Of a DNA stretch of 64,000 nt, positions 35,840-49,434 are shown in pieces. Position numbers and translations under genes: made by a program. The stretch lies in the NCBI RefSeq assembly GCF_024448985.1, contig NZ_JAMOII010000003.1, positions 186,001 through 250,000 of the forward strand, given 5' to 3'. Source of the DNA: Stutzerimonas stutzeri (GTDB taxonomy: Bacteria; Pseudomonadota; Gammaproteobacteria; Pseudomonadales; Pseudomonadaceae). The notes beneath the pieces were generated by a model, which searched no databases, was not told where the DNA came from, and worked only from the letters and a program-made list of their open reading frames with translations. Positions within the stretch are counted from its first letter, which is position 1, and the number at the start of each line of letters is the position of its first letter.

Positions 35840-36577
35840 TTATGCTACGCAGTCATCGAGCATGGCCTTCGTGTACGCAGCAACCTCACCGATTACGAGA
35901 ATTGCCGGACTTTTTAGCTGAAAGGCCAGGGCATCGCGGCACATGTCCGCCAGGCTGGAGCGGCATTCGCGTTGCTGCGTAAGGGAGGCGTTTTCGATCA
36001 TCGCGACGGCGGTCCACGCCGGCAGACCGCCTTCGATCAGGCCAGCCTGTACCTGATGCAGGCTGCTGACGCCCATGTAGACGACCAGTGTCGTGCCGGT
36101 TTTCGCCAGCGCGTGCCACTCGGGACTGCTGTTATCCAGCGTATGTGCTGTAACCAAGGTAACGCCACGGGCGACGCCGCGATGGGTCAGCGAAATACCG
36201 CATTGAGTCGCGCCGGCAAGGCCTGCGGTTATGCCATTGACGATCTCCACTTCGACGCCACGCTCCGCCAGCCATTCCGCTTCTTCACCGCCGCGTCCGA
36301 AAATGCACGGATCGCCGCCTTTCAGGCGCACCACACACTTGCCCTGGCGTGCGTAGCGCAACATCAATCTATGGATGAAGGCCTGCGGCGTCGAGCGGCA
36401 GCCACCGCGCTTGCCCACCGGGATCACCCGCGCGTTCGGGCAGTGTTGGAGTACGGCGGGATTGACCAGATCGTCGATCAGCACCACCTGCGCCTCGCCC
36501 AAGGCCCGCACGGCCTTTAGTGTCAGTAGTTCCGGGTCACCGGGACCTGCGCCCACCAGCCATACTTTTGCGCTCAT
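35840..36577 (-). CDS. cobA: Uroporphyrinogen-III C-methyltransferase
   Basis: The enzyme methylates uroporphyrinogen III twice with S-adenosylmethionine to give precorrin-2, the precursor of sirohaem and cobalamin. The 245-residue product has the SUMT motifs VWLVGAGPGDPELLTLKA at the start and VVRLKGGDPCIFGRGGEEAEWL in the middle, and is the single-domain form without CysG dehydrogenase/chelatase. The ATG at 36577 has AGAGGTAG before it. It is the last gene of the nitrate operon; sirohaem supply for nitrite reductase explains the placement. Confidence 0.93.
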   Translation of the reverse strand: MSAKVWLVGAGPGDPELLTLKAVRALGEAQVVLIDDLVNPAVLQHCPNARVIPVGKRGGCRSTPQAFIHRLMLRYARQGKCVVRLKGGDPCIFGRGGEEAEWLAERGVEVEIVNGITAGLAGATQCGISLTHRGVARGVTLVTAHTLDNSSPEWHALAKTGTTLVVYMGVSSLHQVQAGLIEGGLPAWTAVAMIENASLTQQRECRSSLADMCRDALAFQLKSPAILVIGEVAAYTKAMLDDCVA

Positions 36578-36650
36578 GTATCTACCTCTCATGCTGCTGC
36601 GATCATGTTGGCCATGCGCTATGCATCGCCTGTTCCGCCATGGATTTTGT

Positions 36651-39347
36651 TCAGGCCATCGTTGGCTGTTTCATCAGCAGTCGCCTGATTTCCGGTACGC
36701 AGGAACCACAGCTGGTTCCACAGCCCAGTTCACGCTTCAAACCATCCAAATCGAGGCCCCGCTCCATTCCCGCACAGACCGCGTCCTGGCTGACGTTCAT
36801 GCAGTTGCATAGAATCTTGCTGGCGCGAATATCACCGCCAGGCGGCTTGCTTAGCGGGGCGAGTAACCAGCGGCGCAGCGCCGGATCGGCCTTTCCGTCG
36901 AGCCAGAGCTGCTTCAGCCAGTGGCGTGCGGCGGTTTCGCCGGAAAGGCTGATGGCGACGATGCGGTCCTCTTCGATGCGCACCCGCTTGCCAACGCTGC
37001 GTCGCGGGTCGTCGTAGATCAGCACCGGACCTTCATCCAGTCGCAGCAATTGATTGAGCTGCGCCAGTAACGCTGTGCTCGGCGCCTCGCTACCAGCGGC
37101 GCGGATCACCAACGCTGCCCGGTCGCGCCCGGCAAGGCTGAAACTGGCGTAGGCGAACCCCTCGAACAATGGGCGCAGCGCCTCGAAACGTTGCTGCACC
37201 GAGCCTTCGACGAGGGCGAAGAACTGCCAGGGCAGCTCGATCTTTTCCACCTCGACACCGGCGTGCTTGAGTTCGGGTTGCTTCGAAATCGGGTCGAATG
37301 CCGGCAACGTGAGCCGGTTGACGCCCAGCCCCTTGAGGAAGCGATCACCCCAATGCATCGGCAGGAAGACCTGGCCAGTACGCAGGCCGTCATCCTCGCG
37401 TACCGGCAACAGCAATTCGCCACGGCGGCTGCGAACCTTGACCAGTTGGCCATCGAGCAGCCGACGGCTACGCATGTCCTCGACGCTCATGCTCAGCAGC
37501 GCTTCTTCGACATGGCCGAACAGGCGCGCTGCGGTGCCGGTGCGGCTCATGCCATGCCAGTGATCGCGCAGGCGACCCGTGTTCAGCGTAAGCGGGAACT
37601 GGGTTTCGCGTTTCTCCTTCGGCGCCTGATAGTGCTCGGCGATAAAGCGTGCGCGGCCGTCATCGGTCGGGAACACGCCGTCGCCGTAGAGCCGCGGCGT
37701 GCCTCGCTGGCTGCCGGCAGGGAAGGGCCATTGTTGCGGGCCGAGCTGATCAATCACCGCATGACTGAGACCGGACAGGTCCAGGTCACGGCCCTGGGTG
37801 AGCAGTTTGTATTCCTCGAACAGCGCGGCGGCGGTGTCGAACGCGAACAGGCTCGCCTGATCGGGGCGCATCAGGCTTTCCAGACGGCGAGCAAAATCAC
37901 AGGTGATCGACCAATCGGCGCGCGCCTCGCCCGGTGCGGGAATGGCGCGTCGCACATGGCTGACACGGCGCTCGGAGTTGGTCACGGTGCCGTCCTTCTC
38001 GCCCCAACTGGCCGCGGGCAGCAGCAAATCAGCGTAGCGGCAGGTCTCGGTGGTAAAGAAAGCTTCCTGGACGACCACGAAAGGGCACGCCGCCAGCGCT
38101 TGATGAATGCTCTGCTGGTCCGGCATCGACTGCGCGGGATTGGTGCAGGCGATCCACAGCGCCTTGACCTTGCCGCTGCGTACGGCATCGAACAGCTCTA
38201 TCGCGGACAGGCCCGACGTATCAGGCAGCGCCGGGACGTTCCAATAATTAGCGACTTCGGCACGATGCCCCGCGTTGCCAGATTCGCGATGGCCTGGCAA
38301 CAGGTTGGACAGGCTGCCGGTTTCGCGTCCGCCCATGGCGTTGGGCTGGCCCGTCAGCGAGAAGGGGCCGGCGCCGGGTTTGCCGATCTGGCCCATGGCG
38401 AGGTGCAGATTGATCAGCGCGCTGTTCTTGGCGCTGCCGGAGGTCGACTGGTTTACGCCCATGCACCACAGCGAAAGAAAGCTAGGCGCGCTACCAATCA
38501 GGCGAGCACAGGTCTGCAACTCTTCGACGCTGATGCCGCACAGGTCCGCTACCTTGGCCGAACTGTACTCATCCACCATATGCCTGAGTTCTTCGAAGCC
38601 GTCGGTGTGGGTCTCGATGAAGTCCCGATCGATCCGGCCTTCGTCCAAGAGTATGTGCAGAATGCCGTGGAACAGCGCGACATCGCTGCCCGGCAGGATC
38701 GCCAGGTGCAGGTCGGCCAGGCCACAGGTGTCGGTGCGTCGCGGGTCGACCACGATGACTTTCATTTGCGGCCTCTTCGCCTTGGCTTCCTCCAGGCGAC
38801 GAAACAGCACCGGGTGGGCATAGGCCATGTTGCTGCCGACGATCAGCAGGCAGTCGCTCTGTTCGATGTCTTCGTAGCTGCACGGCGGCGCGTCAGCGCC
38901 GAGGCTGCGCTTGTAACCGGCCACGGCGGACGACATGCACAGGCGCGAGTTGGAGTCGATGTTGTTGGTGCCAACCAGCGCGCGGGCGAGCTTGTTGAAC
39001 GCGTAGTAATCCTCGGTCAGCAACTGGCCGGAGATGTAGAAGGCGACGCTGTCCGGGCCGTGTTTGGTGATCGTCTCGGCGAATACATGGGCGGCATGGT
39101 CGAGCGCGCTATCCCAGTCGGTGCGGGTACGGGCCAGGTCTTTGCCCAGGCGCAACTCGGGGTAGAGCGCGCGAGCGTCCAAATCACCGGTCAGGTGCAA
39201 GGTCGACCCCTTGCTGCACAGCTTGCCGAAGTTGGCTGGATGATTCGGGTCGCCGGCGACATTAAGGATGCGCTCGCCGTCGTGCTCGATCAGCACGCCG
39301 CAGCCGACGCCGCAGTAGCAGCAGGTGGAGGCAGTGGTCTGGCGCAT
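36651..39347 (-). CDS. nasA: Assimilatory nitrate reductase, catalytic subunit
   Basis: This is a cytoplasmic molybdenum enzyme that reduces nitrate to nitrite for nitrogen assimilation. The 898-residue product binds a 4Fe-4S cluster through Cys9, Cys12, Cys16 and Cys44, and the molybdenum-ligand region is SNSRLCMSSAV. The body is the bis-MGD oxidoreductase fold. The C-terminus adds a BFD-like 2Fe-2S domain (ILCNCMNV...CGTSCGSC), the docking point for an electron donor in the Klebsiella NasA type. There is no Tat signal. It starts 38 bases after the flavoprotein gene, so the two probably form the complex. The name nasA is also used for the transporter in some pseudomonads. Confidence 0.92.
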   Translation of the reverse strand: MRQTTASTCCYCGVGCGVLIEHDGERILNVAGDPNHPANFGKLCSKGSTLHLTGDLDARALYPELRLGKDLARTRTDWDSALDHAAHVFAETITKHGPDSVAFYISGQLLTEDYYAFNKLARALVGTNNIDSNSRLCMSSAVAGYKRSLGADAPPCSYEDIEQSDCLLIVGSNMAYAHPVLFRRLEEAKAKRPQMKVIVVDPRRTDTCGLADLHLAILPGSDVALFHGILHILLDEGRIDRDFIETHTDGFEELRHMVDEYSSAKVADLCGISVEELQTCARLIGSAPSFLSLWCMGVNQSTSGSAKNSALINLHLAMGQIGKPGAGPFSLTGQPNAMGGRETGSLSNLLPGHRESGNAGHRAEVANYWNVPALPDTSGLSAIELFDAVRSGKVKALWIACTNPAQSMPDQQSIHQALAACPFVVVQEAFFTTETCRYADLLLPAASWGEKDGTVTNSERRVSHVRRAIPAPGEARADWSITCDFARRLESLMRPDQASLFAFDTAAALFEEYKLLTQGRDLDLSGLSHAVIDQLGPQQWPFPAGSQRGTPRLYGDGVFPTDDGRARFIAEHYQAPKEKRETQFPLTLNTGRLRDHWHGMSRTGTAARLFGHVEEALLSMSVEDMRSRRLLDGQLVKVRSRRGELLLPVREDDGLRTGQVFLPMHWGDRFLKGLGVNRLTLPAFDPISKQPELKHAGVEVEKIELPWQFFALVEGSVQQRFEALRPLFEGFAYASFSLAGRDRAALVIRAAGSEAPSTALLAQLNQLLRLDEGPVLIYDDPRRSVGKRVRIEEDRIVAISLSGETAARHWLKQLWLDGKADPALRRWLLAPLSKPPGGDIRASKILCNCMNVSQDAVCAGMERGLDLDGLKRELGCGTSCGSCVPEIRRLLMKQPTMA

Positions 39348-39385
39348 AGCGTTTTCTCTCCTGACCTGGTGGGCTTGGTGCGCTG

Positions 39386-40687
39386 TCACGCACATTCGGT
39401 TGTGCTATCGGGTGACAACCGAACGGATTCACTATTGCTGCGTAGCGCCTCGCTCTCCACGCCCGAAGCGGGCTGGCCTAAGCCGGTCGCACCAAACATC
39501 AGGCAATCGCGAATATCACTGACGTTCTGACCTTCGCGCACCTGGCGAAAATACCAGCCGGCATCGGAGGTATCGCCGTACAGGCAGGCGCCGACGAGGA
39601 CGTCGTCCTTGATCACCAGTTTTTTGTACACGCCGCCGATGGGGTCGGAGAGGGTGATGGTTTCGGTGCCTTCACCGCCGATGAAATCACCGGCGGAGAA
39701 CAGGTCGATTCCGGTGACCTTCAGCTTGGTCGACGTCACCGAACCCGGGTAACGGGAGAATCCCAGCATCGCCAGGTGATTGGCGCAGACCCTTGCCTGT
39801 TCGAACAAGGGCGCGACCAGCCCGTAGGCGGTGCCCCGATGGCTGGCGCATTCACCAACGGCATAGATGCGGGGGTCAAAGGTTTGCAGGGTGTCGTTGA
39901 CCAGAATGCCGCGGTCGCAGGGGATTCCGGCTTGCTCCGCCAGCGCACTATTGGGACGAATACCAGCAGCCATGACCACCAGATCGGCGTCGATCACCTC
40001 ACCATCGGCGAAGCGTACGGCCTGGACCCGCCCCTGATCGTTACCGATCAGTTCGGCGGTCTGCTTGTTCATCTTGAAGGTCAGCCCGCGGCTTTCCAAT
40101 GCCTTCTGCAGCAGGGTGCCGGCGCTTTGGTCGAGCTGGCGCTCCATCGGCCATTCGCCGAGGTGCACTACGGTCACCTGCATACCGCGCGCCGTCAGGC
40201 CGTTGGCCGCTTCCAGCCCGAGTAATCCGCCGCCGATTACCACAGCGTGCCTGTGGTTCCTGGCGGCGCCCAGCATCGCCTGGGTGTCGGCGATATCGCG
40301 ATAGCCGATCACCCCGTCGAGCTGATTGCCGGGTATCGGCAGGATGAAGGGTGTCGAACCGGTGGCGATGAGCAGGCGGTCATACTCGGCTTCGCTGCCG
40401 TCTTCGGCGATCACCCGACGCCTGATCCGGTCGATCTGAATCACCTTGCGGTTGAGTAGCAGGCGGATGCCGTTCTTCGCATACCAGTCGAGGTCGTTGA
40501 GCACGATCTCCTCGAAGGTTTGCTCGCCGGCCAATACCGGCGAAAGCAGGATACGGTTGTAGTTGGGATGGGGCTCGGCGCCGAATACCGTGATGTCGTA
40601 GAGATCAGGGGCGAGCTTGAGCAGTTCCTCCAGGGTACGAACCCCGGCCATGCCATTGCCGATCATCACGAGTCTGAGTTTTTTCAT
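39386..40687 (-). CDS. NirB-like NAD(P)H/FAD oxidoreductase lacking the nitrite reductase domain
   Basis: The 433-residue protein corresponds to only the N-terminal flavoprotein part of NADH nitrite reductase NirB. It has the FAD motif VMIGNGMAGVRTLEELL at the start, the NAD(P) motif AVVIGGGLLGLEAANGL at about 148-164, and the FAD-binding RIYAVGECASH. It ends soon after RDCLMFG. There is no BFD cysteine cluster and no sirohaem domain, and no nirD follows. Its size and position before the nitrate reductase gene match the NADH-oxidising NasC subunit of Klebsiella, so it probably feeds electrons to the nitrate reductase. The alternative is a reduced NirB relic, but the frame is clean and the folds are intact. 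Confidence 0.8.
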   Translation of the reverse strand: MKKLRLVMIGNGMAGVRTLEELLKLAPDLYDITVFGAEPHPNYNRILLSPVLAGEQTFEEIVLNDLDWYAKNGIRLLLNRKVIQIDRIRRRVIAEDGSEAEYDRLLIATGSTPFILPIPGNQLDGVIGYRDIADTQAMLGAARNHRHAVVIGGGLLGLEAANGLTARGMQVTVVHLGEWPMERQLDQSAGTLLQKALESRGLTFKMNKQTAELIGNDQGRVQAVRFADGEVIDADLVVMAAGIRPNSALAEQAGIPCDRGILVNDTLQTFDPRIYAVGECASHRGTAYGLVAPLFEQARVCANHLAMLGFSRYPGSVTSTKLKVTGIDLFSAGDFIGGEGTETITLSDPIGGVYKKLVIKDDVLVGACLYGDTSDAGWYFRQVREGQNVSDIRDCLMFGATGLGQPASGVESEALRSNSESVRLSPDSTTECA

Positions 40688-40717: not shown

Positions 40718-40757
40718 AAAAAGGCGCCCCCACCAGTTAACCGGTGAGGACGCCTTT
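40718..40757 (-). terminator. Leader terminator of the nitrate reductase operon
   Basis: On the minus strand AAAGGCG (40757-40751) pairs with CGCCTTT (40726-40720), enclosing CACCGGTTAACTGGTG, and is followed by more T residues. It lies 30 bases before the flavoprotein start, inside the 5' leader, so it should abort transcription unless antiterminated. NasT is the expected antiterminator. Confidence 0.75.
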
Positions 40758-40781
40758 GTCCTTGTTCCGTATTCGGAGCCC

Positions 40782-40801
40782 GGCCCTCCACATTGAAGGC
40801 C
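40782..40801 (-). promoter_or_regulatory. ANTAR-type hexaloop hairpin in the nitrate reductase leader
   Basis: The RNA would form a seven-pair stem (GGCCUUC/GAGGGCC, one G-U pair) closed by the six-base loop AAUGUG. A at loop position 1 and G at position 4 are the identities that ANTAR proteins recognise. It is 24 bases upstream of the leader terminator. A small second stem (UCCG-AAUA-CGGA, 40777-40766) lies between them. Confidence 0.65.
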
Positions 40802-40824
40802 CGGCTTGATGTTGCTCTTGACAA

Positions 40825-40841
40825 TGCAGGGGCTGTGCCAA
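40825..40841 (-). promoter_or_regulatory. Sigma-54 (-24/-12) promoter of the nitrate reductase operon
   Basis: The minus strand reads TTGGCACAGCCCCTGCA, with GG at 40839-40838 and GC at 40827-40826, exactly ten bases apart. Transcription should start near 40814, giving a leader of about 125 bases before the flavoprotein gene. Confidence 0.75.
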
Positions 40842-40904: not shown

Positions 40905-40941
40905 TGCACCGCTATGATGCGCGCCGTGCAGCACTGGTGCA
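40905..40941 (-). promoter_or_regulatory. Possible NtrC enhancer half-sites
   Basis: Relative to the NtrC consensus TGCACC-N5-GGTGCA, 40905-40921 has a perfect left half and a four-of-six right half. The adjacent 40925-40941 has a perfect right half and a poor left half. They lie about 65-115 bases upstream of the sigma-54 element, a normal enhancer distance. Confidence 0.45.
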
Positions 40942-41451: not shown

Positions 41452-43125
41452 CTAGCCGTTTTTACCTAGCCACGCCAGCAGAGCCAGATTCAACAACAGC
41501 GAGAGCAGGGCGATGCCGCGCCAGACCTTCAACGGTTCGCGTTCGAGCAATGGCCGCGACGGCGTGCTGTTTGCCAGGCGCTCACCCTGTTCCAGTACCA
41601 ATAGCCATTCTTCGGCTGTTTCGAAGCGCTGTGCGGGCTCTGCCGCGACGGCGCGCTTGAGCATGTCATCCAGCCATTGGGGCAGATCGGGTCGATAGCG
41701 ACTGGCCGGCACAGCGTTGCCGAAACGGGGCCGTTGGAAGGCTTCCACCTCGCCGTAGGGGTAGTGACCGGTGAGCAGGTAGTAGAGCGTGACGCCAGCT
41801 GCGTAGATGTCCTGTTCCCGGCTTGGCGCCGCGCCGGCAAAGGCTTCAGGGGCGATATAGCTCGGCGTGCCCGGCAAGTTGTGCGGCTGGTCCTCGGACA
41901 GCCCCGGGCAATAGGCCAGGCCGAAATCCAGCAGGCGCAGCTCGCCGGCGTCATCCAGGTGCAGGTTTTCCGGTTTGATGTCGCGGTGCAGGATGTTGCG
42001 TCGGTGCAGCATACCCAGCGCGCGGATCAGGCGTGGCGCCATCTGCAACCAGTCGGGCAGCGACATCGGGCCTTGTTGAGTGAAGCGCTGTACGAGGGTC
42101 TGCCCACTGTATTCGCGCTGCACGTAATACAGGTGCTGGCGCCGGGGCAGGTCATGGAGCTCGGGGTAATGGCGGCCTGCGACCCGGCGCAGAAACCATT
42201 CCTCCTGCAGCAACGCTGGTCCGGCTTCGAGTTCGTCCGCCCGGCTCGGTGGCAAAGTCTTGAGCAGCCAGGGCTGACCCTGTTGATCGCGCACACGGTA
42301 GACCAGCGACTGGCGCGATTCGCCCAGCAACGCCTCGATGTACCAGCCTTCGAATGTCTGGCCGAGCCGCAATCGGGGTGGCAACGGCCAATCGGCCAGC
42401 TGAGCGAGCGAATCGGCAAGTACCGCTTCTGACAGTTCGTCGACCCGCAGCAGCAGGGCGCTGGCGTTGTCTTGGCTGCCGTTCTGGTGCGCGAGATCGA
42501 CCAACGTTCTGGCTGCGCTGGTTAGATCAGTTTCGGAACCGAGAATGTTCCGGATATCGCGCTCGGCGATGCTGGCCCAGACGCCGTCGCTCAGCAGCAC
42601 GAAGGTTTCGCCGAGGCGCAGCTCGCCGTCGAGGTAATCCATCACCAGGTGCTGATCCAGGCCCATGGCACGCTTGAGCACGTGCTGCATGTTCGGCTGG
42701 TCCCACACATGGTCTTCGCTCAACCGCTGTAGCTGGCCGTCATACCAGCGATAAGCCCGGCAGTCACCGACGTGGGCAAGGGTAAAGCGCCGCCCACGCA
42801 GCACCAGCGCGGTCAATGTGGTCAGCAGCGGCTGCCCGCCACCGTTGGCTTGCAGCCAGCGATTGTGGGCAACCAGTACTCGGTCGAGCGACTGCGCGAC
42901 GGTCCAGGTTTCCGGTGTGGCGTAGTAATCAGTGGCCAGTGCCTGCAGCGTCGCCCGCGCCGCCAGGCCGCCGTCCGCGCACTGGCTGACACCGTCGGCG
43001 ATAGCGAACAGCGCACCCTTGCTAGCCGCGAGGCCTAGCGTTGGCGTGACGATACGCAGCGCGTCCTGATTTTCTGCACGCGGACCGGTTGCGGTGGCTT
43101 CGCCGAAGGAAAGTTGAAGGGGCAT
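41452..43125 (-). CDS. Bifunctional PP2C phosphatase / serine-threonine kinase
   Basis: The 557-residue protein joins a PP2C phosphatase (about residues 1-235) to a Hanks-type kinase (about 260-525) and ends in a single membrane helix (ALLSLLLNLALLAWLG), so it is tail-anchored in the inner membrane facing the cytoplasm. PP2C motifs RAENQDAL, FAIADGVS, AHVGDCRAYRW, LLSDGVW and SQDNASALL are intact. The kinase keeps the catalytic loop HRDIKPENLHL, the DFG in LLDFGLAYC, and YIAPEAF. The lysine of the ATP site is probably that of WLLKTLPP. It sits between the nitrate transporter and the nitrate reductase operon, as in P. aeruginosa, so a role in controlling nitrate assimilation is likely but unproven here. 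Confidence 0.88.
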   Translation of the reverse strand: MPLQLSFGEATATGPRAENQDALRIVTPTLGLAASKGALFAIADGVSQCADGGLAARATLQALATDYYATPETWTVAQSLDRVLVAHNRWLQANGGGQPLLTTLTALVLRGRRFTLAHVGDCRAYRWYDGQLQRLSEDHVWDQPNMQHVLKRAMGLDQHLVMDYLDGELRLGETFVLLSDGVWASIAERDIRNILGSETDLTSAARTLVDLAHQNGSQDNASALLLRVDELSEAVLADSLAQLADWPLPPRLRLGQTFEGWYIEALLGESRQSLVYRVRDQQGQPWLLKTLPPSRADELEAGPALLQEEWFLRRVAGRHYPELHDLPRRQHLYYVQREYSGQTLVQRFTQQGPMSLPDWLQMAPRLIRALGMLHRRNILHRDIKPENLHLDDAGELRLLDFGLAYCPGLSEDQPHNLPGTPSYIAPEAFAGAAPSREQDIYAAGVTLYYLLTGHYPYGEVEAFQRPRFGNAVPASRYRPDLPQWLDDMLKRAVAAEPAQRFETAEEWLLVLEQGERLANSTPSRPLLEREPLKVWRGIALLSLLLNLALLAWLGKNG

Positions 43126-43222: not shown

Positions 43223-44434
43223 CTATACCCTTGCCACTGTCATTGCCGCCGAACCCCAGGTGGTTCTCCAGCGACGCTTCACGCCATAGAGGCCGAACCA
43301 GGCCAACGCACCCAGGCTGGCGAACAGCCAGAGACCCAGCTGGTAGTCGCCGGTGGCCTGCTTGACGGCGCCCAAACCTGCGGTGAGCAAGAAGCCACCG
43401 ATGCCGCCGGCCATGCCGACTAGCCCGGTCATCACGCCGATTTCCTTGTTGAAGCGCTGCGGCACCAACTGGAACACCGCGCCGTTGCCGGCCCCAAGGC
43501 TGAGCATGGCAACGACGAACAACGCCAGCGCAGCCGTCGAGCTTGGCAGATTGAACCCGACGATAAACAAGCAGATAGCCGTCACGGTATACATCACCAG
43601 CAGCGAGCGGATGCCGCCGATACGGTCGGCCAGCGCGCCGCCCAGCGGCCGCAACAAGCTGCCGGCGAATACGCAGGCGGCGGTGTAGTAGCCGGCCTTG
43701 ACCGGGTCGAACGCGTACTGGTCGTGAAAATAGCCGGGCAGGGTGCTGGCCAGTCCGAGGAAGCCGCCGAACGTCACGCTGTAGAAGAACATGAACCACC
43801 AGCTGTCGCGGTCACCCAGTGCCTTCATGTAGTCGGCGAAGGACTTCGGCGCGGGACGGTTCGGCGCATTCTTGGCCACACTGGCGAAGATAAACAGCGT
43901 CAGCACCAGCGGGATCAGTGCCAGGCCGAATACGTTGCTCCAGCCGAACATCGTAGCCAGCACTGGCGCGAACAGCGCCGCGAGCACGGTCCCGGAGTTG
44001 CCGGCACCGGCAATGCCCATCGCCTTGCCCTGATGCTGCGGCGGATACCACTGTGACGCCAACGGCAGCGCCACGGCGAAGGAGGCACCGGCCATGCCGA
44101 GGAACAGGCCGAGCAGCAGCGCCTGCTCATAGTTGTGGATGCCGTGGAGCCAGGCTACGAACAGCGCGGCGATCACCACGATCTGGCCGAACAGCCCGGC
44201 TGCCTTCGGTGAGGTGCGGTCGGCCAGCATACCCAGCACCAGGCGCAGAACGGCGCCGGAGAGGATCGGCGTAGCCACCATAAAGGCGCGCTGCTGCGTG
44301 GTCAGCCCGAGATCGGCAGCGATCTGCACGCCCATCGGGCCGAGTACGTACCAGACCATGAAACTCAAATCGAAGTAGAGAAAGGCAGAGAACAGCGTCG
44401 GCGTATGGCCGGCTTTCCAGAAACTCGTATTCAT
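43223..44434 (-). CDS. Nitrate/nitrite transporter, NarK/NasA type (MFS)
   Basis: The 403-residue protein is a 12-helix major-facilitator transporter of the nitrate/nitrite porter family, which brings nitrate into the cell. Signature stretches include GMAGASFAVALPLASQWYPPQHQGKAMGIAGAGNSG and GMAGGIGGFLL, the two glycine-rich nitrate signature helices. The ATG at 44434 has GAGGTG upstream. The gene has its own sigma-54 promoter and an attenuated leader, and is followed after 97 bases by the kinase gene. In P. aeruginosa its counterpart is called nasA; I leave the symbol blank to avoid confusion with the reductase. Confidence 0.92.
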   Translation of the reverse strand: MNTSFWKAGHTPTLFSAFLYFDLSFMVWYVLGPMGVQIAADLGLTTQQRAFMVATPILSGAVLRLVLGMLADRTSPKAAGLFGQIVVIAALFVAWLHGIHNYEQALLLGLFLGMAGASFAVALPLASQWYPPQHQGKAMGIAGAGNSGTVLAALFAPVLATMFGWSNVFGLALIPLVLTLFIFASVAKNAPNRPAPKSFADYMKALGDRDSWWFMFFYSVTFGGFLGLASTLPGYFHDQYAFDPVKAGYYTAACVFAGSLLRPLGGALADRIGGIRSLLVMYTVTAICLFIVGFNLPSSTAALALFVVAMLSLGAGNGAVFQLVPQRFNKEIGVMTGLVGMAGGIGGFLLTAGLGAVKQATGDYQLGLWLFASLGALAWFGLYGVKRRWRTTWGSAAMTVARV

Positions 44435-44590
44435 CGAACACCTCACTAGACGCTAGACAAGTGCAGCCGACGCGCCGAAATGGGCGGCGGATATGCGATG
44501 ACCGCCCAGCCGATCCGGCTGCGGCAGTGCTCGAAGCAGTTGCGAGTGGCGGGGTCGTTGCCATTCGCGCCCCGATCCCTGGGGCAAACG

Positions 44591-44642
44591 AAAAAGCGCC
44601 GCGAAACCGCCGTCAGTCTCAACGGGGCAACGCGACGCCTTT
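44591..44642 (-). terminator. Leader terminator of the nitrate transporter gene
   Basis: On the minus strand AAAGGCGTCGCG (44642-44631) pairs, with one bulge and one G-U pair, with CGCGGCGCTTT (44603-44593), followed by further T residues. It lies about 155 bases before the transporter ATG and should be bypassed when NasT acts. Confidence 0.7.
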
Positions 44643-44655
44643 GTCATGTCTGTGA

Positions 44656-44673
44656 GTAACCGCCTTTGGCTAC
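44656..44673 (-). promoter_or_regulatory. ANTAR-type hexaloop hairpin in the transporter leader
   Basis: GUAGCC pairs with GGUUAC (one G-U pair) around the loop AAAGGC, which again has A at position 1 and G at position 4. It sits 13 bases before the leader terminator, mirroring the arrangement ahead of the nitrate reductase operon. Confidence 0.65.
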
Positions 44674-44687
44674 CTGATGTGTACTAA

Positions 44688-44704
44688 GCATTAGCTGTGC
44701 CAAA
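44688..44704 (-). promoter_or_regulatory. Sigma-54 (-24/-12) promoter of the nitrate transporter gene
   Basis: The minus strand reads TTTGGCACAGCTAATGC, with GG at 44701-44700 and GC at 44689-44688, ten bases apart. The predicted start near 44677 is just before the hexaloop hairpin. The leader to the ATG is about 240 bases. Confidence 0.8.
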
Positions 44705-45830: not shown

Positions 45831-46409
45831 TTACCGATCGAGCAGTTCGTTCATGGCGATGATCTGCTCGGCTACCTGTATCAGCTTCTGCTGGCGGCTC
45901 ATGGCCTGGCGGCGCATCAATGTATAGGCGTCTTCCTCGTTGCAGCTTTTCATTTTCATCAGCATGCCCTTGGCCAGCTCGATGCGCTTGCGCTCGACCA
46001 ACTGTTGATCGCGCGCCTGCAGTTGCGCACGAATGGCCTGATCGCTTTCGAAGCGGGCCATCGCCACATCCAGGATCGGTTTGAGGCGTTGAGCCTGGAT
46101 GCCTTCGACGATATAGGCGCTGACGCCGGCGCGAATCGCCTGGCGCATGGCGTCGGGGTTGTCGTCGTCGGTGAACATGACGATGGGCCGCGGCTGATCG
46201 CGGCTGACCATCACCACCTGCTCCATCACGTCTCGGCCAGGTGAGTCGGTGTCGATCAGCACTACGTCGGGGCGAATCGCTTCGACTCGTTCGGGCAGGT
46301 CGATGGTCAGGCCGGATTCCTCAATCACCTCGAAGCCGGCTTCCATCAGCGCGGCGCGCAGGCGACCAACCTTGCGAGGCGTATCGTCGATCAGCAGGAC
46401 GCGAAGCAT
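45831..46409 (-). CDS. nasT: NasT, nitrate-responsive ANTAR antiterminator
   Basis: The 192-residue protein has an N-terminal receiver-like domain (RVLLIDDTPRKVGRLRAAL, with VVLIDTDSPGRD holding the aspartate region) and a C-terminal ANTAR RNA-binding domain (ERKRIELAKGMLMKMKSCNEEDAYTLMRRQAM). NasT binds hexaloop hairpins in nas leader RNAs and prevents termination, and is held inactive by NasS when nitrate is absent. Two such leaders occur in this window. It begins 11 bases after nasS. Confidence 0.93.
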   Translation of the reverse strand: MLRVLLIDDTPRKVGRLRAALMEAGFEVIEESGLTIDLPERVEAIRPDVVLIDTDSPGRDVMEQVVMVSRDQPRPIVMFTDDDNPDAMRQAIRAGVSAYIVEGIQAQRLKPILDVAMARFESDQAIRAQLQARDQQLVERKRIELAKGMLMKMKSCNEEDAYTLMRRQAMSRQQKLIQVAEQIIAMNELLDR

Positions 46410-46420
46410 GGCTTTCTCCC

Positions 46421-47644
46421 TTAGCTCGGCTCGAGCAGCGCGGCGGTTTCGGTTAGGCCATCCAAGGCGAAACTGCGTGCATAGACGGCCGGATCGCTGC
46501 CGTCCCAGCGACTGCCATCCATCAGCACGGCGCTGCGCATGACCGAGTCCGGCACTGAAATGTTCAATGTCGTCGCCGCATCGCGGTAGAGGCTGGTTTG
46601 CTGCACCTTCTGCGCAATGGCGAGGTAGTCCGGATCTTCGCGCAACAGGCCCCAGCGGCGCAGTTGGGTCATGAACCAGAGGCCGTCGGAATGGTAGGGC
46701 ATGTTCACCTCGCCATTGCCGAAGAAGCGTAGCGGGTGCTCGTCCTGCCAGGCGCGCCCCAGGCCGTCTTCATACTGGCCGAGAAAACGCGGCTCGATGG
46801 CGGCCACCGGTGCATCGACGTAGCCGCTGCCGGCGATCAACTGCGCGGTGCTGCGCCGATTCTCCTGGCTCTCGTCGATAAAGCGACTGGCTTCGAGGAT
46901 CGCCATGACCAGTGCACGGGCAGTGTTGGGATATTGCTCGACGAAGGCGCGTGTGCAGCCCAGCACCTTTTCCGGATGGGCGGGCCAGATCGATTGGCTG
47001 GTGGCCAGAGTGAAGCCGATGTCTTCCCGTATCGCCTGTGCGCCCCAGGGCTCGCCGGCGCAGAAGCCATCGATGCGACCTGCCCGCAGGTGCGCCACCA
47101 TTTGTGAAGGCGGCACCACCAGCGTACGTACGTCTTTCAGTGGATGGATGCCGTGGGCGGCCAGCCAGTAGTACAGCCAGAGGGCATGCGTGCCGGTGGG
47201 GAAGGTCTGCGCCAGGACGAGTTTTGCACCGCTCTGGCGCACGCTGCGGCTGAGCGCTTCGGGATCGGTCACGCCAGACGACTTGAGTGTGCTTGACAAG
47301 TTGATGCTCTGGCCGTTCTGAGCCAGACCCATGAGCACCGCCATGTCGACCGGCGCGCTGCCGCCGATACCCAGATGCACGGCATAGATCAGGCCGTACA
47401 AGCCATGCGCGGCGTCCAGTTCACCTTCGATCAACTTGTCGCGAATATTCGACCAGGACGTCTGCCGCTGCAGGTTGAGAGTCAAGCCGTAGGGTTGAGC
47501 AAAGCCTTGCGTGGCGGCAACGATCAGCGATGCGGCATCGGTCAGGGCCATGAAGCCGAGATTGACGACGTGCTTTTCCGGCGCATCGCTGCCTGCGACC
47601 CAGGCCAATGGGTTGGGCCGTGGCGGCGTGTTGGGATGAGTCAT
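46421..47644 (-). CDS. nasS: NasS, cytoplasmic nitrate sensor
   Basis: The 407-residue protein resembles the NrtA/CmpA-type nitrate-binding periplasmic proteins but has no signal peptide, as expected for NasS. Motifs include VNLGFMALTDAASLIVAATQGFAQPYGL near the start and RAGRIDGFCAGEPWGAQAI in the second lobe. In known systems NasS sequesters NasT without nitrate and releases it when nitrate or nitrite binds. The nasS-nasT order and tight spacing fit. Confidence 0.93.
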   Translation of the reverse strand: MTHPNTPPRPNPLAWVAGSDAPEKHVVNLGFMALTDAASLIVAATQGFAQPYGLTLNLQRQTSWSNIRDKLIEGELDAAHGLYGLIYAVHLGIGGSAPVDMAVLMGLAQNGQSINLSSTLKSSGVTDPEALSRSVRQSGAKLVLAQTFPTGTHALWLYYWLAAHGIHPLKDVRTLVVPPSQMVAHLRAGRIDGFCAGEPWGAQAIREDIGFTLATSQSIWPAHPEKVLGCTRAFVEQYPNTARALVMAILEASRFIDESQENRRSTAQLIAGSGYVDAPVAAIEPRFLGQYEDGLGRAWQDEHPLRFFGNGEVNMPYHSDGLWFMTQLRRWGLLREDPDYLAIAQKVQQTSLYRDAATTLNISVPDSVMRSAVLMDGSRWDGSDPAVYARSFALDGLTETAALLEPS

Positions 47645-47814: not shown

Positions 47815-49434
47815 TTAGCGCGGATACAAGGGCGGCAAGGCGCCGGCTTCCGCCTCGGTGACGGCTGGTTGAGCAGTCGGCAGGTTCTGGATGGCCTGCC
47901 ATAGCGCCTCGCCCTGCCAGCGCTGACCGGTCTCGCTGTAGAGCGCGCCGTTCAAGCCATCCAGAGCATCGGACAGCGGGACGAAGCGTGCGGCCATGTC
48001 CGCCAGCGTTTCGGGTTGCTGGCGTGCCCAGGCGTCGAGCGCGTGGCGGGTCGCTTGGGTGTCGTTGGCCAGACAGGCGCGCTTGAGGTCGTCGAGCAGG
48101 CTGCGCGGTGTCGGACCACTCTGCACCGTGCGGATGACCGCCGGCTGGCTGCGTGCCCGCAGCCACAGGCCGAAGCCGAGCAGGGTGGTCAGTGCAAGTA
48201 CCGCGCTGCTCAGCTGCCACGGCCATAGCCGTGTTTCGGTCTGCGCCTGCGGCGTGTCTGGATGCGTAATCGGTGCTTGTTGAAACTCGGAATTTTCCGC
48301 CACCTGAAGCATTCGCTCGGGCAAGGTGCTGCGCTCCAGGCGATCTTCGACGGTGTTCCACCAGACCAGCTCCACGCTGGGCAGTACATACTCTCCGGCG
48401 CCTGTCGCAACGAGCGCCTCACGCTGCTCACGGCTGCCACTGACGCCTTTGTCGGTGACCTCGTCGTTCAGGCTTGGCTGGTCGGGATAACGCCGCAATC
48501 CAGCCACCGGCGGCGATTCGAGCGGTGGCAGCTGAGTGCTGGACAGACCTTCGGCTTTCAGCATCAGGCTGCGCGTCAGGGCCTCGCCCAGCTGGGCGTC
48601 CTGCGGTTGCGGGCTCCAGGCTTCGACCAGGGTCAGATCGGTCGCCGGAAGCCAGGGCGCATCGGCGGGATATTCGACCGGCTTGGCTTTGACCTCCAGC
48701 GGAATCTCGGGGGATTTGACCTGGGTGGATTTCCCGAAGCGAGAACCGTAAAAGGCACCGTTAGACGCCACGGTGGTCGCACTGAACAGCTGCGCGGGAA
48801 TGCTCAACGTGCCGCTTTTCTGCGGGAACAGCGCATAGCGGATCTCGATGACGCCGTGACGTATTCCATTGATGTCCTTTTCGTAAGTGCGCGGTTCGCC
48901 GAGTCGCTCGACCAGCGCATCGCTCATCTGCAAGGGTGAGAGCGTGCTGTCATCGTAGAGCGACACGGAATGGTAGATGCGCAGGGTCAGCACCACCTGC
49001 GCCTGAACGTAAACGCTGTCCTGATCGAGGCTGGAGTCGATGAATATCGGCGCCAGCGTGTCGCTGCCTTCGTTCCCAGGCTCGCTGACATGCAGCGTGA
49101 TGGGTTCGCTGCGCCAGTCGCCCAGCTGCAATGGCGGAATCACCACGTAGCCGGTCTGTAGCGGCTGAAGCGTGATCAACCATCGTGTGGTGGTACGCGC
49201 CTCGCCGTTCGCACCGGACAGCTGGTTGACCTGGCGGCTGTCGAACACCTTGAACAGGCCATCGAGCGGCTGCAGGTTCGGTCTGCCGAACGCCGTGATA
49301 TCCCCGGTTTCGAGCGTCAACTCGACGGTTTCATCCAGGCTCAGCTGGGTGCGATCGACCCGCGCGACCAGCGCAGAGGCGCTCGCCTGGCAGCCGAGCA
49401 TGAGCAGAAACACCAGTGTCATCAGCCGCGTCAT
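47815..49434 (-). CDS. batD: BatD-family protein
   Basis: The 539-residue protein has a signal peptide (MTRLMTLVFLLMLGCQASA), a long periplasmic region of beta-rich oxygen-tolerance/BatD type (from RVDRTQLSLDETVELTLET), a membrane helix near residue 410 (AVLALTTLLGFGLWL), and a helical cytoplasmic tail. The function is not settled in the family; Bacteroides Bat proteins are linked to aerotolerance and Leptospira ones to oxidative stress. Its ATG overlaps the stop of the VWA-TPR gene, and it is the last gene of the moxR-bat operon. Confidence 0.82.
   Translation of the reverse strand: MTRLMTLVFLLMLGCQASASALVARVDRTQLSLDETVELTLETGDITAFGRPNLQPLDGLFKVFDSRQVNQLSGANGEARTTTRWLITLQPLQTGYVVIPPLQLGDWRSEPITLHVSEPGNEGSDTLAPIFIDSSLDQDSVYVQAQVVLTLRIYHSVSLYDDSTLSPLQMSDALVERLGEPRTYEKDINGIRHGVIEIRYALFPQKSGTLSIPAQLFSATTVASNGAFYGSRFGKSTQVKSPEIPLEVKAKPVEYPADAPWLPATDLTLVEAWSPQPQDAQLGEALTRSLMLKAEGLSSTQLPPLESPPVAGLRRYPDQPSLNDEVTDKGVSGSREQREALVATGAGEYVLPSVELVWWNTVEDRLERSTLPERMLQVAENSEFQQAPITHPDTPQAQTETRLWPWQLSSAVLALTTLLGFGLWLRARSQPAVIRTVQSGPTPRSLLDDLKRACLANDTQATRHALDAWARQQPETLADMAARFVPLSDALDGLNGALYSETGQRWQGEALWQAIQNLPTAQPAVTEAEAGALPPLYPR

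Follow-up and report, generated by a model that had tools for sequence, protein, structure and literature searches.

A P11-type leader with a candidate antiterminator hairpin precedes a nirB-nasA-cobA operon in Stutzerimonas stutzeri and very probably answers to NtrC and NasT

The primary papers for the two-key model of the Pseudomonas NalA leader are reportedly Romeo 2012 and Nie 2024. Under this model, nalA is transcribed from a sigma-54 promoter that requires NtrC, NasS lets go of NasT on nitrate or nitrite, and NasT antiterminates within NalA ahead of nirBD (PMC12830290; this and the other papers are cited for what their accessible parts state). An ntrC mutant of P. stutzeri A1501 does not use nitrate and has lower expression of nasB, nasC and nasG in nitrate medium; in the same strain nasT is NtrC-dependent, and growth on nitrate is said, on the strength of unpublished data, to be lost in a nasT mutant (PMC8443478). 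More generally, ANTAR antitermination leaders have been defined by two hairpins of at least three pairs, each closed by a hexaloop with A at position 1 and G at position 4 (A1/G4; PMC3369931).

We analyzed a leader within a 64,000-nucleotide stretch of S. stutzeri DNA (hereafter the window), to which coordinates refer unless another contig is named; the genes, promoter boxes and RNA elements that we annotate in it all lie on the minus strand. A covariance-model search matched 40852-40723 to the Rfam family P11 (RF00625) over model positions 1-139 of 139 with a score of 83.3 bits (E 2.9e-16), which exceeds the gathering score of 70 bits and so places the leader in P11. No other P11 match in the genome (4.23 Mb, 52 contigs) exceeds the cut-off, while among 148 genomes drawn from the bacterial family 104 have a P11 match at E≤0.001 and 89 have one over the cut-off. 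The element described in an earlier note, made from the sequence alone, therefore belongs to a known RNA family. Judged by its sequence, the leader is the Stutzerimonas version of the Pseudomonas NalA/P11 RNA switch, a mechanism that is already known. It also has the anatomy of an ANTAR antitermination leader, with two A1/G4 hexaloop hairpins of at least three pairs each (H1 and H3), the second of which overlaps an intrinsic terminator (40751-40747 are common to both stems), in a genome that encodes one ANTAR protein, NasT. The composite of an A1/G4 hexaloop hairpin, its 3' arm inside the 5' arm of a terminator, and TGGC-N7/8-TGC upstream occurs once in the window, at this leader (the scan did not detect the narK leader described below), and the same overlap with a sigma-54-like box was found in 0 of 60 dinucleotide shuffles. 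The combination of parts is thus beyond chance, and the whole is what the Rfam P11 model matches.

The leader sits 5' of the nirB-type gene of a nir/nas-cobA operon, and here this gene (39386-40687) encodes the N-terminal half of NirB alone. Its product, a 433-aa FAD/NAD(P)H oxidoreductase half without the sirohaem domain, aligns to the first 404-432 residues of the NirB-type proteins of the nine P11-type relatives compared, with 81-86% identity. The next gene, nasA-like, overlaps its end by 10 nt with no nirD between them, and encodes a 914-aa molybdopterin oxidoreductase (36651-39395) that is probably the assimilatory nitrate reductase, given its context and its best models, all of which score under their curated cut-offs. 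The earlier note had called this the nitrate reductase operon; NasA is indeed encoded in it, although as the second gene, the first being that of the NirB-like FAD subunit. The operon also includes cobA, for uroporphyrinogen-III C-methyltransferase (35840-36592; NF004790 and TIGR01469 above cut-off). To place these features in context we used relatives fetched with the first-gene protein, taking the best 80 of 542. Two of these 80 (L013, 424 aa, and L019, 443 aa) likewise have a short first gene, with other tails and nasA next. Contig 5 of the same genome encodes a NirB of 857 aa in which the sirohaem domains are present, a distant paralogue that is 36% identical to the 433-aa protein. With a NirB half and nasA here and a full NirB there, nitrate and nitrite reduction appear to be divided between two operons, each with a putative NasT-type leader. 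A PP2C phosphatase-protein kinase fusion gene (41452-43125) lies between the leader and narK (43223-44446), on the same strand; narK encodes a nitrate/nitrite MFS transporter (TIGR00886, 312.2 bits, cut-off 311.7). The window also contains an Rfam rmf RNA (RF01755; 62760-62634, 90.2 bits).

The promoter box at 40825-40841 reads TTGGCACAGCCCCTGCA, a -24/-12 element of the form GG-N10-GC, just as the earlier note had it, and counting from the -12 position at 40826 gives a predicted start of 40814, the same value as in that note. Nowhere else in the window is TTGGCACNNNNNYTGCW matched exactly. With one mismatch, however, the window holds 3 matches where 1.48 are expected, so that the box by itself is weak evidence, and a lone sigma-54 box was rejected as proof. 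Among the best 80 of 542 relatives, TTGGC-N9/10-GC[AT] lies 165-210 nt 5' of the nirB-type start in 78, and L014 and L016, which fall outside this strict pattern, show a CTGGCAC variant. Such constancy of placement bears on the nature of the element, which could instead be chiefly a free-standing sRNA acting in trans, with read-through into the operon as a secondary matter. The Rfam entry is of type gene and is named 'Pseudomonas sRNA P11', and P11 of P. aeruginosa has been reported to affect C. elegans behaviour; the same source, however, says that P11 also regulates a nitrogen assimilation operon (PMC12080996), and the transgenerational responses were reportedly not replicated by another group (PMC11942167). 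A box that keeps its distance to the nirB-type gene argues for a role in cis, and the conservation of A1/G4 hexaloops documented below suits ANTAR binding, so that we regard a primarily trans-acting P11 as very improbable here.

Upstream of the promoter are two NtrC-like sites, 20 bp apart. Scored as 17-mers against an NtrC consensus, the one at 40925-40941 agrees with it in 9 of 14 positions and the one at 40905-40921 in 11 of 14; measured from where the -24 box starts, they lie at about -100 and about -80, respectively. A single NtrC-like score is weak, since at least 11 of 14 also turns up in 37 of 1000 random stretches of the window. The spacing of the best two sites is 19-21 bp in 54 of 79 relatives (from the best 80 of 542, with one omitted for too little upstream DNA), compared to 80 of 3000 control stretches taken further downstream at these loci, where it should be borne in mind that the relatives share kinship and conservation counts among them are not independent. 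Overall, the tandem NtrC-like sites are weak candidates, modest in score and conserved in placement across relatives. The genome encodes NtrC (785.7 bits, cut-off 558.6).

Hairpin H1 (40778-40805) has the core GGCCUUC[AAUGUG]GAGGGCC at 40801-40782, the seven-pair hairpin with A1 and G4 that had been noticed before, and beyond a G-G mismatch 3 further pairs extend it to 40805-40778. The 64 kb hold 11 A1/G4 hexaloops with at least seven pairs on both strands, H1 counted, and therefore the hairpin by itself is also weak evidence; a lone A1/G4 hairpin was likewise rejected as proof. For a comparison across leaders we assembled 111 of them, consisting of the window's, those of the best 80 of 542 relatives and the 30 best-scoring P11 loci from 104 genomes, the last of which may duplicate named species. 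The best hexaloop near the H1 position, chosen with no requirement for A or G, has A1 and G4 in 101 of 108 leaders while its position 6 varies; 3 of the 111 have no H1-type hexaloop hairpin. We use this count in place of one at fixed positions (86 of 111), whose bounds shut out the window's own H1. In 31 aligned leaders, 84.7% of H1 cells are paired and the covariation score is 0.245 in the true register, against 0.161 for shuffled alignments (none of 500 scored as high) and 0.010-0.127 for H1 frames slid along the alignment. The same 31 rows contain 3 pairs with double changes, which is no excess (228 of 500 shuffles reach it), and the outer pairs are open in up to 10 of the rows.

The intrinsic terminator is a stem-loop at 40723-40754 with 14 bp, G-U allowed, around a UUAA loop (GGCGUCCUCACCGG-UUAA-CUGGUGGGGGCGCC), followed by a U5 tract at 40718-40722 that was read from the sequence. 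It thus lies ahead of the gene start at 40687, where the earlier note had expected it; a generic terminator scan of the window did not list it. That note had also claimed the full set of parts for two-key control, and while the elements it named are all present, it overlooked a second, mutually exclusive hexaloop hairpin. This is H3 (40747-40762), AGGAC[AAAGGC]GUCCU, a candidate antiterminator with A1 and G4 whose 3' arm is part of the terminator 5' arm, the bases 40754-40747 serving both as H3 and as the start of that arm. The leader from 40814 to 40723 folds at -51.1 kcal/mol (z -6.5), and folded alone the terminator has -30.6 kcal/mol versus -6.3 for H3. In a truncated fold (40814-40746) H3 forms, whereas in the full leader the terminator takes its place. 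H3 and the terminator are mutually exclusive, and H3 can act as a switch.

The H3 core GACAAAGG[CT]GTC is found in the window and in 80/80 relatives picked by protein alone (best 80 of 542), as well as in 30/30 loci selected with the P11 model, whose own score includes that motif, for a total of 111/111. Motif searches of the genome outside this setting were less informative. The exact string GACAAAGGCGTC occurs at four sites, two of which are leaders in the window; the others, inside a 539-aa frame (47815-49434) and a 299-residue frame on contig 14, were taken as chance. Allowing up to one mismatch gave 49 sites for the pattern and 105 for the reversed-pattern control, and so carries no statistical weight. 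A CAAHGRCG...CGYCDTTT pattern gave 6 sites versus 10 for its control. Two of the 6 correspond to the leaders of the window and of contig 5. The remaining four were discarded, as their hexaloop stems reach three pairs at most and no sigma-54-like box lies within 200 nt of them.

The genome appears to have three NasT-type leaders, namely the P11 leader, a narK RNA and a leader ahead of nirB-nirD-nirC on contig 5. The narK RNA (RF03032) at 44632-44701 precedes narK, and has P1 at 44674-44655 with loop AAAGGC and P2 at 44646-44633, UGAC[AAAGGC]GUCG. Our comparison of narK-type leaders took in that of the window and 16 others, 17 in all, of which 5 score under the family cut-off. A second A1/G4 hexaloop is present in 15 of these, and in 15/15 its 3' arm falls within a stem of at least eight pairs that ends at a T run; in L129 and L141 the loop of the second hairpin begins with G in place of A, and these two were excluded from the cross-family pair count given below. 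This second narK hexaloop looks like a NasT target. It is missing from the RF03032 structure line. In Bradyrhizobium, NasT hairpins have been predicted in the narK and nirA leaders, and narK was up, not down, in a nasT mutant (PMC6759348).

The third leader (contig 5, 103249-103440, corresponding to L097:1750-1941, with nirB at L097 1994) was unlisted by genome searches with RF00625 and RF03032 at E≤1. It has a sigma-54 box and three hexaloop hairpins, GGUC[AGCGAA]GACC, CGGGC[AACGAG]GCUCG and CCAGGC[AAAGGC]GCCUGG, the last of which lies over a 14-bp terminator. Its DNA is matched in 48 of 56 genomes of the genus, although some matches are partial. Among the best 30 loci, the last hexaloop has a stem of at least six pairs in 30/30 and both other hexaloops (at least four pairs) are found in 25/30. 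In the 23 of these 30 leaders that were aligned, loop positions 1 and 4 are invariant in all three hexaloops and 98.2% of cells pair, more than in any shuffle. Double changes in these 23 rows are confined to the middle hexaloop stem and a 5' hairpin, the last stem being invariant.

These additional leaders are what allow H3 to be assessed by covariation, because its pairs are nearly invariant within P11 and any covariation depends on comparison between families. Pairs 1-3 were built into the search patterns of that comparison. Among 32 distinct segments of the P11, narK and nir leaders, 30 have a standard pair 4, which occurs as G-C, C-G, A-U or U-G. This evidence bears directly on whether NasT works through H1 alone, with H3 a mere by-product of the terminator. 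The terminator does include the 3' arm of H3 and the latter half of its loop, and the U tract offers a pairing partner to the AAA, so that the conservation of these bases comes in part from another cause. In addition, the minimal EutV binding site has been redefined structurally as one hexaloop, yet the same work states that EutV antitermination still requires both (PMC8934654). A by-product would also not account for the H3 5' arm, which lies outside the terminator, matches the 3' arm and differs together with it among the P11, narK and nir leaders, as seen in pair 4 and in the six pairs of every one of the best 30 nir loci. We therefore consider H1-only action unlikely, and retain H1 and H3 together as the predicted NasT target.

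Between H1 and H3 lies hairpin H2 (40766-40777), which in the window has 4 bp and an AAUA tetraloop, at a place where an A1/G4 hexaloop is found in most of the P11 leaders examined. By a motif rule, this middle A1/G4 hexaloop is present in 95/111 leaders. Where the best-scoring middle hairpin has a six-base loop, 84/85 have A1 and G4, with position 2 variable; by this best-hairpin rule the loop is of another size in 25/111 leaders, and one has no middle hairpin. CCG-AAUA-CGG occurs in the window and in L006-L012, and in no other of the best 80 of 542 relatives. The window leader thus departs from the consensus P11 form with a middle hexaloop, which the Rfam cut-off does not need. Because the middle hexaloop is absent from this clade, a NasT that requires two hexaloops would have to dock on H1 and H3. 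These are separated by a 15-nt linker (40777-40763) that contains the 12-nt H2 mini-hairpin, outside the 5-12 nt spacing of the EutV type, and this counts against the reading. A more general idea, which we put forward tentatively and judge somewhat short of an even chance, is that the P11 and nirB-nirD-nirC NasT leaders of Pseudomonadaceae would have three ANTAR hexaloops, of which the last (AAAGGC) is common with narK and the middle P11 one is an optional docking site dropped by the window's Stutzerimonas clade, with NasT docking stepwise on the conserved A1/G4 loops as the RNA emerges. We found no description of three-hexaloop NasT leaders or of the nirB-nirD-nirC leader in the literature searched, which covered few subscription papers, and do not claim that they are unpublished. 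Loss of the middle hexaloop, together with the contig 5 leader, provides natural variants for studying the number and spacing of ANTAR hexaloops.

The putative trans-acting partners are encoded close by. The nasT gene, which had been placed 5 kb away and is found at 45831-46409, encodes response-regulator and ANTAR domains and gives the only Pfam ANTAR match in the genome. A nasS-like gene (46421-47644), for an NMT1 (PF13379) binding-protein-type sensor, adjoins it, so that the pair lies 5-7 kb from the P11 leader. A sigma-54-like box, TTGGCATGTGGCTTGCT, is located at 47743-47727, 83 nt 5' of nasS, and with it the NasS-NasT pair may itself answer to NtrC. The terminator is highly stable, as constitutive attenuation indifferent to nitrate and NasT would have it; against that view stand the proximity of nasT and the nasS-like gene, the fact that NasT is the single ANTAR protein of the genome, and the published NalA homologue (PMC12830290), which together make it extremely improbable.

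On balance, it is very likely that this is the NalA/P11 leader of nirB'-nasA-cobA, combining an NtrC/sigma-54 start with nitrate/NasT antitermination via H1 and H3. The promoter box, the hairpins and their mutual exclusion, the conservation and the single ANTAR protein can be read off the DNA. Dependence on NtrC and NasT, the nitrate signal, the transcript ends and the pairing of H1 with H3 are proposed from homologues or from the leader's anatomy. Under nitrogen limitation, phosphorylated NtrC on the two upstream sites would open the sigma-54 promoter, giving an RNA from about 40814. In the nascent RNA H1 and H2 would form first, then H3 with its A1/G4 loop AAAGGC. With nitrate absent, NasS would hold NasT, the terminator would displace H3, and a P11 RNA of about 97 nt would be released. 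With nitrate present, free NasT would dock on the H1 and H3 hexaloops and keep the bound H3 arm out of the terminator, allowing polymerase to read into the operon. Such a switch would limit nitrate-using enzymes to conditions of nitrogen shortage in which nitrate is available. The earlier proposal of control by NtrC/RpoN and NasS/NasT finds support in the homologous NalA model, the conservation of the sigma-54 box, the tandem NtrC-like sites, the NtrC gene and the single ANTAR protein. The two-key prediction made from sequence is in this sense confirmed, with H3 added as a candidate switch element. Counter-evidence comes from A1501, in which NtrC reportedly did not raise the nitrate reductase gene nasG under nitrogen-fixing conditions, although it did raise nasBC (PMC8443478).

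Compared to other ANTAR systems, the leader resembles that of EutV in Enterococcus faecalis in having two A1/G4 hexaloops, the second inside the terminator (PMC8934654, PMC3369931). It differs from it in protein and signal, and in spacing, since the E. faecalis eut linkers are 5-12 nt long and the window's 15 nt hold a mini-hairpin; EutV linkers of 3 or 14 nt are reported to drastically lower induction (PMC3369931), and the EutV rule of two hexaloops close together appears to be stretched here. With the Klebsiella nasF leader and NasR it has in common an A1/G4 hexaloop before a terminator, a nitrate signal (here predicted) and an assimilation operon, whereas NasR senses nitrate/nitrite through a NIT domain in one protein and NasS and NasT are separate in the window (PMC3369931). 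The narK RNA, a separate leader in the same window, shares with P11 a sigma-54 box, an A1/G4 hexaloop and, in 15/17, a GAC/GUC A1/G4 hairpin over a terminator-like stem, but has no middle hairpin, its hexaloop hairpins being 2-23 nt apart in the 14 of 17 rows that show both. The closest counterpart is the NalA/P11 leader of Pseudomonas nirBD-PA1779-cobA, which has the same place, operon type, sigma-54 box, H1, H3 and terminator, with nasT and a nasS-like gene nearby; what sets the window leader apart from this known kind is the AAUA tetraloop of its middle hairpin and a first gene for a 433-aa NirB half, with no nirD before nasA.
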